NCBI RefSeq assembly: GCF_000789235.1 | Contig: NZ_KN525716.1 | Coordinates: 1,819,169 to 1,883,168, forward strand | DNA length: 64,000 bases | Origin: Wocania ichthyoenteri Th78 | Lineage (GTDB): Bacteria; Bacteroidota; Bacteroidia; Flavobacteriales; Flavobacteriaceae | Direction: 5' to 3' | Shown: positions 8,796 to 13,815 of the stretch, piece by piece | Numbering within the stretch: the first letter of the stretch is position 1 | How the letters are laid out: every line of letters begins with the position of its first letter | Notes under the pieces: generated by a model | What the model was told of the DNA's origin: nothing | Database searches by the model: none | The model's input: only the letters and a program-made list of their open reading frames with translations | Made by a program: the position numbers and the translations under genes

Positions 8796-9863
8796 TTATT
8801 TCTTTTTTAAAACTTCAAAAATATTTCTTAAGTCTTTTTTATAAGGCAGGTGGTCTGCACGTCCTTTTTTGAAAATATCATTACTATTACCTTGCCCTTT
8901 ACGGAGTTCTTTTTGCTCTTCGAAGGGTAATGCGTGTATGTCTTTACAATTGGTTGAACAGCAGTTATTCATTTCTGCCTTACAAGCATCACATTGAATA
9001 AATAATAAATGGCAAGCATCATTAGCACAATTAGTATGTATATCTGCAGGTTTACCACATTGATGACAACAAGCAATAACATCGTCACTAATTTTTTCAG
9101 CTCTGCGTTCATCAAAAACAAAATTTTTGCCAATAAATTTATTTTCTAAATGCTTTTCGTTTACTTGTCTTGTATACTCAATAATACCGCCTTCTAATTG
9201 ATACACATTTTTAAAACCTTTGTGCTTAAAATACGCGCTAGCTTTTTCGCAACGAATACCACCGGTGCAATACATAACTAGGTTTTTATCTTCTTTATGA
9301 TCTTTTAAATCGGCTTCAATTATGTCTAACGATTCTCTAAACGTATCAACATCTGGAGTAACGGCATTTTTAAAATGACCTATTTCACTTTCGTAATGGT
9401 TTCGCATGTCTACCAAAACCGTTTTATCGTCTTCAATAAGGCTGTTAAACTTATTTGCGTCAACATGAATGCCTTTGTTGGTAACATCAAAAGTATCATC
9501 GTTTAAACCATCTGCAACAATTTTATGACGCACTTTTACTTTAAGTTTTAAAAACGACATATTATCTTGCTCTACAGCAATATTTAAACGAATACCTTTT
9601 AAAAAATCGATAGTATCTAAATGTGTTTTAAATTCGTTAAAACGATCTGCCGGAAGTGATAGTTGCCCATTAATACCTTCGTGTGCTACGTAGATTCTAC
9701 CAAGAACATCTAAAGCGTTCCAAGCAATAAATAATTGATCTCTAAATTCTTGAGGATTGGTAATTTTAGCGTATTGATAAAAAGAAAGTGTTAATCGATC
9801 TTTACCTGCTTTTTCGATTAATTCGGCTCTTTCTTTAGCGCTTAATTTATTGTACAGTTGCAT
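8796..9863 (-). CDS. trhO: tRNA uridine(34) hydroxylase TrhO (rhodanese-related, YceA family)
   Basis: TrhO catalyses oxygen-dependent 5-hydroxylation of U34 in tRNA anticodons. The 355-residue product has an N-terminal acylphosphatase-like region, a rhodanese domain with the active-site loop CTGGIRC (Cys199 and Cys205), and a Cys-rich C-terminal segment with several CxxC pairs, likely a zinc-binding module. Its length and layout match the family. It stands alone: 140 bp separate it from ricT, and it diverges from recA. A TATTTTTG box on the minus strand (9904-9911) could be its -7 element, but I see no matching -33 element. Confidence 0.9.
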   Translation of the reverse strand: MQLYNKLSAKERAELIEKAGKDRLTLSFYQYAKITNPQEFRDQLFIAWNALDVLGRIYVAHEGINGQLSLPADRFNEFKTHLDTIDFLKGIRLNIAVEQDNMSFLKLKVKVRHKIVADGLNDDTFDVTNKGIHVDANKFNSLIEDDKTVLVDMRNHYESEIGHFKNAVTPDVDTFRESLDIIEADLKDHKEDKNLVMYCTGGIRCEKASAYFKHKGFKNVYQLEGGIIEYTRQVNEKHLENKFIGKNFVFDERRAEKISDDVIACCHQCGKPADIHTNCANDACHLLFIQCDACKAEMNNCCSTNCKDIHALPFEEQKELRKGQGNSNDIFKKGRADHLPYKKDLRNIFEVLKKK

Positions 9864-9940
9864 GCTATACTAATGCTTTAAGGTTAAAAAATATTTTAAA
9901 ATACAAAAATACAATTTTAAAAGGATAGCGCAGTATGTTG

Positions 9941-10047
9941 TATAAAAAAAGCACTTTAATTTACATAAAGTGCTTTATAAAACAGTTCGAGTTAGTTTAT
10001 ATTCAAACCATTAATAGGTAAATTTCATAGCAAAATCTTCCTGCGTT
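9941..10047 (-). ncRNA. Candidate ECF-sigma-controlled small RNA between trhO and recA
   Basis: There is no protein gene here on the minus strand. A promoter-like motif (10051-10081) and a well-formed minus-strand intrinsic terminator (9944-9976) define a potential transcript of about 100 nt. The promoter motif closely matches the one in front of the ECF sigma operon at 11212, with the same 15-nt spacer. The transcript contains a five-codon mini-ORF (ATG followed by AAATTTACCTATTAA) with an AGGA-like site upstream, so a leader peptide is also possible. If the terminator leaks, the RNA could be a leader of trhO. The start and end are estimates. Confidence 0.4.
9944..9976 (-). terminator. Orphan intrinsic terminator between divergent trhO and recA
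   Basis: An 11-bp perfect stem (AAAGCACTTTA at 9948-9958 with its complement at 9966-9976) and a 7-nt loop precede a T7 run when read on the minus strand. No annotated gene lies upstream of it on that strand, since recA is on the plus strand. It therefore points to an unannotated minus-strand transcript. Confidence 0.65.
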
Positions 10048-10050
10048 TAC

Positions 10051-10081
10051 TAATAGATGCAAAATGTATAAAAAGGTTGCG
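10051..10081 (-). promoter_or_regulatory. Putative ECF-sigma promoter (CGCAACC-N15-CATCTATTA)
   Basis: Read on the minus strand, CGCAACC (10075-10081) is followed after exactly 15 nt by CATCTATTA (10051-10059). The same two blocks with the same spacing precede the sigma factor operon at 11212-11242, and about 11 of 15 spacer bases also agree. An AAC core in the -35 region and a CATCTA-like -10 fit the general style of ECF promoters. Assignment to this sigma factor is inference. Confidence 0.45.
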
Positions 10082-10146
10082 TGATAAAATTGTATTGTGA
10101 AAAAACTTATAGTATTTTAGCATACATAATTTCAGAAAAACAGAAA

Positions 10147-11157
10147 ATGAGCAACGAAAAAGAAAAAGAAGCAAAATTAAAAGCACTAAAACTTACATTA
10201 GATAAATTAGATAAAGCATACGGTAAAGGCACCGTAATGAAAATGAGTGACCAAGCAGTTGTAGATGTTGATGCTATTCCATCGGGATCTTTAGGTTTAG
10301 ATATTGCCTTAGGCGTTGGTGGCTATCCACGTGGTCGTGTAATAGAAATTTACGGACCAGAATCATCTGGTAAAACGACTTTAACTTTACATGCTATTGC
10401 TGAAGCTCAAAAAGCGGGAGGTATTGCTGCGTTTATTGATGCAGAGCATGCTTTTGATCGATTTTACGCAGAAAAACTAGGTGTAGACATTGACAATTTA
10501 ATAATCTCGCAACCCGATAATGGCGAGCAAGCTTTAGAAATTGCCGATAATTTAATTCGCTCAGGTGCTATTGATATTGTGGTTATAGATTCCGTTGCTG
10601 CACTAACTCCTAAAAGTGAAATTGAAGGTGAAATGGGAGACTCGAAAATGGGCTTACATGCACGTTTAATGTCTCAAGCTTTAAGAAAACTTACTGGGTC
10701 TATTAGTAAAACCAATTGTACCGTAATTTTTATTAACCAATTACGTGAAAAAATTGGTGTTATGTTTGGCAACCCAGAAACCACAACCGGTGGTAATGCT
10801 TTAAAATTTTATGCATCGGTTAGATTAGACATTAGACGTTCTACTCAAATTAAAGATAGCAACGGTAATGTTTTAGGAAACAAAACTAGAGTAAAAGTAG
10901 TTAAAAATAAAGTAGCTCCTCCTTTTAAACTAGCAGAGTTTGATATTATGTATGGAGAAGGCGTAAGCAAAGTAGGAGAAATTTTAGATGTAGCTGTTGA
11001 GCACGAAATAGTTAAGAAAAGCGGCTCGTGGTTTAGTTATGATGATACTAAACTTGGCCAAGGGCGAGATGCCGTAAAAGCTATTATAAAAGACAACCCC
11101 GAACTCATGGACGAGCTCGAAGATAAAATTAGAAACATTTTAAAAGCATCAGAATAA
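10147..11157 (+). CDS. recA: Recombinase RecA
   Basis: RecA forms ATP-dependent filaments on single-stranded DNA and drives homologous recombination and repair. I place the start at the ATG at 10147 ([16 protein letters not shown]), giving 336 residues as in relatives. An upstream in-frame GTG at 10081 would add 22 residues unlike the family and overlap the reversed promoter motif. Walker A is GPESSGKT (residues 70-77), and the core motifs (e.g. [29 protein letters not shown]) are intact, with an acidic C-terminus. It is monocistronic, closed by a strong terminator at 11162. No SOS-type operator was recognised upstream. Confidence 0.97.
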
Positions 11158-11161
11158 ATAA

Positions 11162-11189
11162 AAAATCCCGAATTTTCGGGATTTTTTTT
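11162..11189 (+). terminator. Intrinsic terminator of recA
   Basis: An 11-bp stem (AAAATCCCGAA/TTCGGGATTTT) with a 2-nt apical gap (effectively a slightly shorter stem) starts four bases after the recA stop and runs into T8. Confidence 0.9.
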
Positions 11190-11211
11190 ATATAATTAAA
11201 TTAATATTACA

Positions 11212-11242
11212 CGCAACCTTTTAATTTATTTGGCATCTATAA
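11212..11242 (+). promoter_or_regulatory. Putative autoregulated ECF-sigma promoter
   Basis: CGCAACC (11212-11218), a 15-nt spacer and CATCTATAA (11234-11242) lie about 45 bp ahead of the lipoprotein-sigma-membrane protein operon. The motif recurs at 10051-10081 on the other strand. ECF sigma factors commonly activate their own operons, which makes this the best candidate autoregulatory site. Confidence 0.5.
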
Positions 11243-11286: not shown

Positions 11287-11697
11287 ATGAAAAAGTTAGT
11301 CGCCCTAAGCTTAGCTTTATTTTTATTTGCGTCATGCAGTATTGATGATGATAGCACAAATTATAGCTTTGAAATATTACCAATAGAAAGTGTTGATATT
11401 CCTAACGAGTTTACTTTAGGTGAAGTTTATCCCATAACAGTTTCTTATTTTAGACCTTCAACATGTCACTCTTTTAAAGAGTTTTATTATTTAAAAGAAA
11501 ATAATCAGCGTACTGTTGCCGCTATTAATTATGTATTTGATAATAATAGTTGTGAAACACTTACAGAAGAATTAGTAGAAGCAACATTTAATTTTATTGT
11601 TACCAGTAATGGATCATATATATTTAAGTTTTGGCAAGGTGAAGGTGATAATGGAGAAGATCAATACCTAATTATAGAAGTGCCTGTTACAAATTAA
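11287..11697 (+). CDS. Small lipoprotein of unknown function, first gene of the sigma operon
   Basis: The 136-residue product starts with a short lipoprotein signal peptide ending in FASC (Cys17), followed by an acidic stretch (SIDDDS). The rest looks like a compact beta-rich domain with two Cys residues (in STCHSF and NNSCETL) that could form a disulphide. I recognise no named family. It begins about 45 bp downstream of the putative ECF promoter, and the sigma gene starts 30 bp after its stop. It is therefore probably co-transcribed with the sigma factor and may be part of the envelope signal that controls it (inference). Confidence 0.75.
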   Translation: MKKLVALSLALFLFASCSIDDDSTNYSFEILPIESVDIPNEFTLGEVYPITVSYFRPSTCHSFKEFYYLKENNQRTVAAINYVFDNNSCETLTEELVEATFNFIVTSNGSYIFKFWQGEGDNGEDQYLIIEVPVTN

Positions 11698-11727: not shown

Positions 11728-12270
11728 TTGAGTTTAAACCAACTCATAGAAAATTGTAGAATTAATGATACTAAAGCCCAAGGAGAATTATACAAACTCT
11801 TTTCGAGTAAATTATTCTCTGTATGCTTGAAGTATTCGAGAAACTATGCCGAAGCAGAAGATAATTTACAAGATGCTTTTTTAACAATTTTTGATAAAAT
11901 AGAACAATATAAAAGTAAAGGCTCTTTTGAGGGTTGGTTAAAACGAATAACAATAAACACCGTTTTGCAACGCTACCGAAACGAAAAAGTTTTTGATATT
12001 ATAAATGAAAATGTAGCCGATGAAGTTGAATTAGAGATTGATGAAGATAATGTCTCTTTAGATTATCTCTTAAAAATAATCCAAGAATTGCCAGATCGTT
12101 ACAGATTAGTATTTAACCTTTATGTTTTAGATGGTTATTCGCATAAAGAAATAGCAGATATGCTAAGTATAAATATAGGGACTTCAAAATCTAATTTAGC
12201 TCGTGCTAGACAAGCTTTAAAAGAAACTATTGAAAATCATAAAACAAGACAAAGTTTACAATCCTTATAA
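11728..12270 (+). CDS. ECF-type RNA polymerase sigma factor
   Basis: The 180-residue protein has sigma region 2 (about residues 22-90, including DNLQDAFLTIFDKIEQY and the GWLKRITIN segment) and region 4 (about 115-170, helix-turn-helix YSHKEIADMLSINIGTSKSNLARARQ). There is no region 1 or 3, as expected for the ECF group. The start is a TTG at 11728 (MSLNQLIENCRIND), which fits the usual N-terminus of Bacteroidota homologues; no ATG lies close by. The stop is immediately followed by the ATG of the next gene. It probably directs transcription of its own operon through the motif at 11212. Confidence 0.9.
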   Translation: MSLNQLIENCRINDTKAQGELYKLFSSKLFSVCLKYSRNYAEAEDNLQDAFLTIFDKIEQYKSKGSFEGWLKRITINTVLQRYRNEKVFDIINENVADEVELEIDEDNVSLDYLLKIIQELPDRYRLVFNLYVLDGYSHKEIADMLSINIGTSKSNLARARQALKETIENHKTRQSLQSL

Positions 12271-13815
12271 ATGAGTGATAAAAAACATATAGACAGATTA
12301 TTTCAGGAGCGTTTTAAAGATTTTGAAGCGACTCCTAGCGATACTGTTTGGGAAAATATTGAAGCCAAATTAAATAAGAAAAAGAAGAAACGACGTGTTA
12401 TTCCTATTTGGTGGCGTTACGCTGGTATTGCTGCTTTATTATTGCTTTTATTAACTGTTGGTGGTTTATTTAATGGTAATGATTCTGAAGATCTTCCAAC
12501 AAACCAGGTTGTTGAAACTGAAGATATAAATCTTGAGAAATCTAATACTACTGAGGATAATAATTCGACTATTAATATTGAAAAAGAAGATAAAATTATA
12601 GATATAGAAGATGATGCTATTGCAGGATCTAATACAGAAAAAGAATCTGCTGAAAAAGCTTCAGAAACTAAAATTGATAATACTCAAAAAGATATTACAC
12701 CTTCAAACGAAACATCTGTTGCTGAAAATGCCTCTTCAAAACTTAAAAATGAAGGTACACAAAAATCGCAGTTACCTTCAAATAAAAAATCAAATATCGG
12801 TGATGTCATTGTAAAAACAGATAATACAACGGTAATTACTCAAAATTCAAAAGAAAAAAATAATAAGGCGATTCAAAATAAAAATCCCCAAATTGATATC
12901 AATAAAGCAAAGCATATAATTAACAATTCAACAAAAAAAAATACCGCTATTGCGGAAGTAAAACCCGATGATATTTCGACAGACGCAATAACCAAAACCG
13001 AAGCTATTGCCGATAACAGCACCAAAGAAAACACGCTTACCATTGAGGAAGTATTAGATAAAAACAAAGATATTATTGAAGAAGAGAAAGACGAAAAATT
13101 AAATAGGTGGAGTATCGCCCCAAATGCTGCGCCTGTTTATTTTAGTAGTTTAGGAGAAGGTTCTTCAATAGATCCGCAATTTAACAACAACTCGAAAAGT
13201 GGCGAACTTAATATGAGTTACGGTATTAAAGCCAGTTATGCTGTTAATAATAAATTAAGTATTCGTACGGGTATAAACAAAGTTAATTTGGGTTACAATA
13301 CCAATAATGTTGTAGTCTTTCAATCTATTAGTTCTAGCTCTAACTTATTACAAAATGTAAATACAAACAGTAATACTGCTGCTGATGCCGTTTCAATAAT
13401 TAGTGGTAATAGTTTAAATTCTTCTAAAAGTCCGGAAGCTTTTACGAAAAGTTCAAATACTTCTATTAATCAAGACATAGGATACATTGAAGTGCCTTTG
13501 GAAATTCAATATGCACTTACGAATAAAAAATTAGGTGTTAATTTAATTGGTGGTTTTAGCTCGTTCTTTTTAAATAAAAATGAAATATTCTCAGAGGTTT
13601 CTGGTTCTCGAACCCTTTTAGGAGAAGCTAATAACATAAACAATGTAAGCTATAGTGCTAATTTTGGTGTGGGATTAAATTATAAAGTTTCAAAAAAAAT
13701 AGATTTGAATTTTGAGCCTATGTTCAAATATCAAATCAATACGTTTAATAATACGTCTGGTAATTTTAAACCTTATTTTATTGGGGTTTATACCGGATTT
13801 GCTATTAAGTTTTAG
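12271..13815 (+). CDS. Sigma-associated membrane protein with inner-membrane segment and C-terminal outer-membrane beta-barrel-like domain
   Basis: The 514-residue protein follows the sigma gene with zero spacing. Residues 1-46 are hydrophilic and very basic at their end (KKKKKRR), and 47-67 form one hydrophobic segment. Residues about 70-270 are a low-complexity Asn/Lys/Glu/Thr-rich linker. The remaining 240 residues show alternating beta-strand patterns and end in Phe (GVYTGFAIKF), like PorT-type outer membrane barrels. The N-terminal 45 residues sit where an anti-sigma domain would be, so this is likely the regulator partner of the ECF factor. Whether one chain really spans both membranes is open. 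Confidence 0.75.
   Translation: MSDKKHIDRLFQERFKDFEATPSDTVWENIEAKLNKKKKKRRVIPIWWRYAGIAALLLLLLTVGGLFNGNDSEDLPTNQVVETEDINLEKSNTTEDNNSTINIEKEDKIIDIEDDAIAGSNTEKESAEKASETKIDNTQKDITPSNETSVAENASSKLKNEGTQKSQLPSNKKSNIGDVIVKTDNTTVITQNSKEKNNKAIQNKNPQIDINKAKHIINNSTKKNTAIAEVKPDDISTDAITKTEAIADNSTKENTLTIEEVLDKNKDIIEEEKDEKLNRWSIAPNAAPVYFSSLGEGSSIDPQFNNNSKSGELNMSYGIKASYAVNNKLSIRTGINKVNLGYNTNNVVVFQSISSSSNLLQNVNTNSNTAADAVSIISGNSLNSSKSPEAFTKSSNTSINQDIGYIEVPLEIQYALTNKKLGVNLIGGFSSFFLNKNEIFSEVSGSRTLLGEANNINNVSYSANFGVGLNYKVSKKIDLNFEPMFKYQINTFNNTSGNFKPYFIGVYTGFAIKF

Follow-up and report, generated by a model that had tools for sequence, protein, structure and literature searches.

In enterobacteria, a central part in envelope stress falls to small RNAs that depend on extracytoplasmic function (ECF) σ factors; the σE-dependent representatives include MicA, RybB, and MicL, and in Escherichia coli such RNAs adjust the mRNAs of envelope proteins. 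We know of no Hfq in Bacteroidota. As for flavobacteria, the YceA protein of Flavobacterium psychrophilum is presumably TrhO. In that species, ECF-type (SM6) promoters precede the small RNA Rfp11, a σ/anti-σ pair, and YceA (available portion of PMC9723704); thus, a small RNA with an ECF promoter has already been reported in the Flavobacteriaceae. The Dma/Das systems of Bacteroides thetaiotaomicron (ECF21) place an ECF gene beside that of a Dma protein in a three-gene operon; the Dma protein consists of an N-terminal anti-σ part, a membrane helix, a disordered tether, and a C-terminal β-barrel, and the term "sRNA" does not occur in the main text of that paper as far as it was accessible (PMC13088901, in part). 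FopS and GibS of B. thetaiotaomicron are short RNAs with a terminator, a single-stranded 5′ seed, and a role in control of surface proteins (PMC11697453, in part).

A Dma/Das-like sigma operon and its promoter motif

The window, that is, the whole 64,000-nt stretch of Wocania ichthyoenteri DNA that we analyzed, carries the following operon:

11212..11240, plus strand: ECF-type promoter of the sigma operon, exact motif
11287..11697, plus strand: small lipoprotein-like gene, no Pfam family
11728..12270, plus strand: ECF-type sigma factor, Sigma70_r2 and Sigma70_r4_2 above cut-off
12271..13815, plus strand: Dma-like protein, predicted to have helices at the N terminus, a membrane helix, a long stretch of low confidence, and β-strands at the C terminus; OMP β-barrel Pfam matches below cut-off

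Like Dma/Das, the operon has three genes, and its ECF σ gene adjoins a membrane-partner gene. The partner may share the Dma order of parts: a low-confidence structure prediction (mean pLDDT 47, pTM 0.33) places helices at residues 3-16, 24-34, and 46-66 and strands from 280 to 513, with most of 64-276 at low confidence. As a difference from Dma/Das, the operon lipoprotein has no Pfam match above cut-off.

An earlier note on this DNA had described the motif CGCAACC-N15-CATCTAT ahead of the operon and again, on the opposite strand, beside recA, with equal spacing and about 11 of 15 spacer bases in common. Both copies are borne out: they lie at 11212-11240 (plus) and 10053-10081 (minus), each range being 2 nt shorter than claimed, with zero mismatches and with N15 spacers identical at 11 of 15 bases. 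Since the core GCAACC-N15-CATCTA occurs five times in the whole 3.95-Mb genome and its reversed control not once, the copies exceed chance. Of the remaining exact copies, two lie upstream of lipoprotein-like genes (L001 and L003) and one upstream of a membrane-like microprotein of 28 aa (L004), and a copy with one mismatch (L006) stands ahead of a lipoprotein-like gene.

Related loci were taken as the best 80 of 429 relatives in a σ-factor scan. In their trhO-recA and sigma-operon upstream regions, where the earlier note had suggested looking, a relaxed motif precedes the operon in 80 of 80 loci and stands beside recA in 78 of the 79 that have recA, with both places occupied in 78 of 79; corresponding counts for the exact motif are 66 of 80, 65 of 79, and 55 of 79. 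When GCAACC-N-[CT]ATCTA was tried with spacings of 12 to 19, 15 alone occurred (70 recA-side and 68 operon-side loci). We infer that the RNA is expressed and that its recA-side promoter is read by the operon's σ factor. The arrangement recalls the SM6 set of F. psychrophilum, in which a small RNA, a σ/anti-σ pair, and a TrhO-like gene stand behind ECF-type promoters; there, however, the −10 element is described as a CGT box, and Rfp11 is mapped far from YceA (available portion of PMC9723704).

The predicted recA-side transcription unit

The unit beside recA comprises these features:

10053..10081, minus strand: ECF-type promoter of the recA-side transcript, exact motif (CGCAACC 10075-10081, CATCTAT 10053-10059)
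9944..10046, minus strand: predicted small RNA of ~100 nt, defined by promoter and terminator; start inferred ~7 nt past the −10 box, T-run as its end
10020..10034, minus strand: conserved leader, TTTGCTATGAAATTT
10011..10028, minus strand: five-codon ORF, MKFTY, not conserved
9989..9996, minus strand: ACTAACTC box, which recurs in a structured form (below)
9948..9976, minus strand: intrinsic terminator hairpin, then T-run
9904..9911, minus strand: TATTTTTG, past the terminator and matching TAnnTTTG; probably the housekeeping −7 box belonging to trhO itself

A minus-strand terminator without a gene ahead of it, closing a discrete unit of about 100 nt, had been claimed here. The terminator is present (stem 9948-9976 plus T-run) and its stem covaries in relatives; together with the promoter, it supports a predicted terminated unit of that size. 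Covariance model R2, of which the window sequence is itself a part, matches 9944-10055.

With trhO usually downstream on the same strand, and with an ECF-type SM6 promoter reported for F. psychrophilum YceA (available portion of PMC9723704), the transcript might be a leader or attenuator of trhO, in which read-through of the terminator lets the ECF factor raise TrhO. We consider this distinctly unlikely: between terminator and trhO, the window has a TAnnTTTG box, the housekeeping −7 consensus as stated in the available portion of PMC9723704; moreover, the element is still beside recA where the trhO start is 1461 nt (L022) or 2564 nt (L036) away and where trhO was not found within the examined stretch (L047, L052, and L059). 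Alternatively, the promoter might serve recA, with which it would interfere or, the two being divergent, be regulated in common, as its proximity would permit (62 to 307 nt from recA to the element in the 65 loci measured, window included). We give this hardly any credence, because the promoter is directed away from recA, from which the window motif is divergent, and is followed by a conserved leader and a terminator of its own.

The earlier note knew of no described small RNA here, and our searches agree. Rfam at the gathering score gave 0 matches in the whole window, and 9800-10200 and 20 structured-form loci gave sub-threshold matches only; a literature search returned no description of any microprotein or RNA encoded in the trhO-recA interval. 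Like MicA, RybB, and MicL, the window RNA is a predicted short, terminated RNA with the promoter of a putative envelope-stress ECF σ, alongside envelope genes. Unlike them, the recA-side locus also has a protein-coding state, and an exact-complement search gave no convincing target: for the exact 12-nt complement of the leader in its own genome, the sole other site lies inside a 482-aa reading frame. With FopS and GibS, the window RNA shares its predicted short length and terminator, and it may also share their single-stranded 5′ seed and control of surface proteins, but their promoters differ, FopS is multicopy, and the window RNA has no Rfam match (PMC11697453, in part).

Coding and ORF-less states of the locus

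In 21 of the 80 related loci, the recA-side transcript codes for a microprotein of ~30 aa (consensus MKFFKKTIxxKALGVSVTVxxNSxCKADGG, 19 rows aligned), for which Pfam gave nothing above cut-off. Averaged over pairs, its sequences differ by 0.21, 0.16, and 0.36 at the first, second, and third codon positions. With 20 of the 21 coding sequences used, median dN/dS is 0.30, and of 190 pairs, 181 were usable, all but one of which (180) stay under 1; on this sequence evidence, the microprotein is under purifying selection. At E ≤0.01, a microprotein profile has matches, some of them weak, in 63 of the 299 family genomes, and recA adjoins the microprotein in 25 of 25 parsed loci (25 of 30 were parsed). 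Against the window genome, the profile found nothing significant (best E, 0.27).

We placed the 79 relatives with recA and the window on a RecA+sigma+TrhO tree. Among these 80 loci, 21 have an intact ORF, 16 have remnants, 41 (window included) have no detectable ORF (ORF-less loci), and 2 are without, or nearly without, the promoter. The intact state requires seven changes on this tree, five of which are forced by well-supported branches.

Some coding loci depart from the common layout. In Tamlana laminarinivorans (L049), a lipoprotein-like ORF directly follows the promoter, and the microprotein lies farther downstream. In the Hyunsoonleella group (L047, L063, and L065), the microprotein frame ends right after the conserved cysteine; farther downstream, ahead of the terminator, comes (A/G)TGAAAAAGAAA, which the structured form has as well. 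Further loci have other divergent ORFs that, by eye, end in DGG or EGG.

The window transcript may be a relic, its microprotein gene lost and its promoter, leader, and terminator yet to decay. The window genome indeed has no microprotein ORF, the intact, remnant, and ORF-less states are scattered on the tree, and by eye the short forms resemble deletions of the coding part. Nevertheless, we regard a relic as unlikely, because promoter and leader are constrained in ORF-less loci. Across 40 of the 41 ORF-less loci, differences amount to 61% at recA fourfold sites versus 2.1% in the promoter boxes and 8.8% in the 10-nt leader core (30% in the promoter spacer), figures that are somewhat favorable because the loci were chosen by resemblance and the boxes and core were found by loose patterns. 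The short form also keeps a similar length, ~104 to 116 nt from −10 box to T-run in 28 aligned loci.

A five-codon mini-ORF inside the RNA had been raised as a further possibility. It exists (10011-10028, minus strand, MKFTY), but a functional role in the window lineage is unsupported and its start is not conserved: of 73 loci scored (window included), 11 have ATC or ATA at the start position, and 10 of these 11 are ORF-less; one locus, L058, is poorly aligned. The leader TTGCTAT-AA is retained even where the start codon is ATC (7 of 73 loci) or ATA (most of 4 loci). It seems very unlikely to us that a very short peptide begun at the leader AUG (MKFTY in the window, MKK-type elsewhere) is what acts, given these ATC and ATA codons and given that length and sequence beyond the second or third codon are variable by eye; in its favor, GTG replaces ATG in 13 of 73 loci, and the structured form again has AUG AAA AAG, along with Lys-synonymous variants.

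Conservation of the short form is mainly one of sequence, in UUUGCUAUGAAA and ACUAACUC; of the 41 ORF-less loci, 30 have ACTA(A/G)CTC and the other 11 lack it. The covariance check proposed in the earlier note came out in favor of the terminator stem, the sole strongly supported structure, but a further conserved internal hairpin in the short form is not supported. An internal hairpin that would present ACUAAC had a mean z of −0.81, and just 1 of 29 sequences beat 95% of shuffles. A leader hairpin was likewise rejected (mean z of −0.45 in 38 ORF-less loci, 3 of which beat 95% of shuffles); it is 66% paired on a model-fitted alignment, which leans to the model and whose 50 matches include three weak ones on the opposite strand.

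A structured form in other genera

Starting from the ACUAACUC box of the short RNA, we found a second form in the same place in other genera: a structured, ~140-nt RNA. Two promoter matches (L205 and L216) have ACTAACTC shortly past the promoter, upstream of trhO, and the combination of promoter and ACTAACTC within 4 to 34 nt occurred in 15 of 299 genomes (control, 0), with recA in 15 of 15 loci and trhO in 13 of 15. The structured form comprises a hairpin, a long stem whose loop holds CUAUGAAAAAG, and a terminator (14 loci). In an alignment of 14 of the 15 loci (L218, with a long insertion, was omitted), 87.4% of cells are paired (shuffles, 80.5%), 19 of 26 pairs show double changes (shuffles, 7.9), and covariation is 0.338 versus 0.225 in shuffles, 0 of 500 of which reached any of five measures; the structure was drawn on the same 14 sequences, and the shuffles ignore their relatedness. 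Slid versions of the structure score far lower.

A promoter-free covariance model of the structured form matched 50 of 299 genomes at E ≤0.01, 32 of them at E <1e-4. It returned 30 structured-form loci, including 15 outside the defining search, which are divergent from recA in 15 of 15 cases and have trhO in 14 of 15; the ACUAACUC box itself is missing in several of these 15, and several structured forms lack ACTA(A/G)CTC. The ECF-type promoter is conserved along with the RNA, in 78 of 79 loci and, in relaxed form, in 14 of the 15 structured-form loci outside the defining search. At order level, the model matched 4 of 296 genomes, including a weak match (E, 9.4e-4) in a genome from beyond the family; in this search, no genome of g127, the commonest genus among the rows listed (perhaps Flavobacterium), matched.

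The CUAUGAAAAAG loop of the long stem (L217-L231) is complementary to UUUUUCAUAG in the FopS query as printed in the accessible part of PMC11697453. That FopS/GibS query holds UUUUUCAUAG complementary to the structured-form CUAUGAAAAA motif, possibly by chance (PMC11697453, in part). It is conceivable that the CUAUGAAAAAG loop has a decoy role.

Linkage to the sigma operon

A profile of the operon lipoprotein (A6) matched 197 of 299 family genomes. The R1 model matched 218 of 299 overall, many through the promoter alone; we therefore scored as RNA positive the 90 genomes with an R1 match at E ≤1e-7 covering the leader (Form A) and the 32 with a structured-form match at E <1e-4 (Form B), two lists with zero overlap. 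Form A omits partial matches (G122 and G170), and genomes with weaker matches in or close to the expected position (e.g., G072, G009, G096, and G154) were scored negative. The operon lipoprotein is present in 119 of 122 RNA-positive versus 78 of 177 other genomes (Fisher p ~1e-25, shared ancestry ignored), and RNA and lipoprotein lie ≤2.5 kb apart in 101 of the 103 genomes with both places printed. We inspected 40 of the 78 lipoprotein-positive, RNA-negative genomes, 7 of which gave stretches without recA. The 33 loci with recA comprise 19 with the relaxed promoter, 5 with a near variant by eye, and 9 with, again by eye, nothing similar; in one of the 19 (L287), the promoter runs straight into a lipoprotein-like gene.

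Proposed role of the recA-side locus

Promoter, terminator, constraint, coding state, structured state, and operon linkage can all be read from the sequences themselves. Many marine flavobacteria have, beside recA, a small gene that an envelope-stress σ factor appears to turn on. The reading that we favor, as somewhat more probable than its negation, is that this locus of a Dma/Das-like σ system is coding in some lineages and RNA in others, the window transcript probably being a trans-acting small RNA. The Dma/Das-like ECF σ factor, presumably released on envelope disturbance, would transcribe several lipoprotein genes besides its own operon and would also give rise to a single short, intrinsically terminated transcript divergent from recA. 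This transcript would be an mRNA for the 30-aa microprotein, a shortened ORF-less form (as in the window), or, in other genera, the ~140-nt structured RNA. By analogy with σE small RNAs, the window RNA may act in trans on envelope-protein mRNAs via its leader core and ACUAACUC box. Weighing against this reading are the exact-complement search that gave no target, the weak internal hairpins of the short form, the loci of either form that lack ACTA(A/G)CTC, and the 14 of 33 lipoprotein-positive, RNA-negative loci that fail the relaxed promoter pattern.

The small RNA claimed in the earlier note thus stands with respect to its shared ECF-type promoter, its conservation, and its linkage and co-occurrence with the operon. 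It is, however, not simply a small RNA but one state of a locus, because in other genera the same transcript codes for the microprotein or forms a different structured RNA. We tentatively suggest, holding it possible but short of probable, that a syntenic, σ-controlled locus passes between coding and noncoding states, with RNA activity kept, the 30-aa microprotein lost repeatedly, and a structured RNA elsewhere. If true, the locus would be a natural series in which to follow how an mRNA turns into a regulatory RNA, or vice versa, while its regulation stays the same; if the RNA is real, the Dma/Das-like σ system gains a posttranscriptional arm. With many lineages having or lacking the protein on the same regulated transcript, RNA and protein functions should be separable by comparison.

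Other genes behind the same promoter

From a longer list of matches in relatives, we chose 20 promoter places for inspection by eye: 14 precede genes for lipoproteins or exported proteins, 3 precede a 28-aa microprotein, 2 are the structured RNA itself, and 1 is without the motif. The membrane-like 28-aa microprotein, which ends in FSVNKKT(D/E)P, lies directly behind the ECF promoter in four genomes (L004, L202, L203, and L206); in the window's own genome (L004; G000:C1:3128512-3128538, minus strand), it is followed by a terminator-like repeat. In four other places (L211-L214, four genomes), small exported or lipoprotein-like proteins with a common CxxIAFGxKPC stretch lie behind the same promoter. 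The trhO-recA spacers of L021, L034, L035, L039, L050, and L070, from several genera, hold a similar stretch around GCGCTAGGGAT (a variant in L050), which looks like a dispersed repeat.
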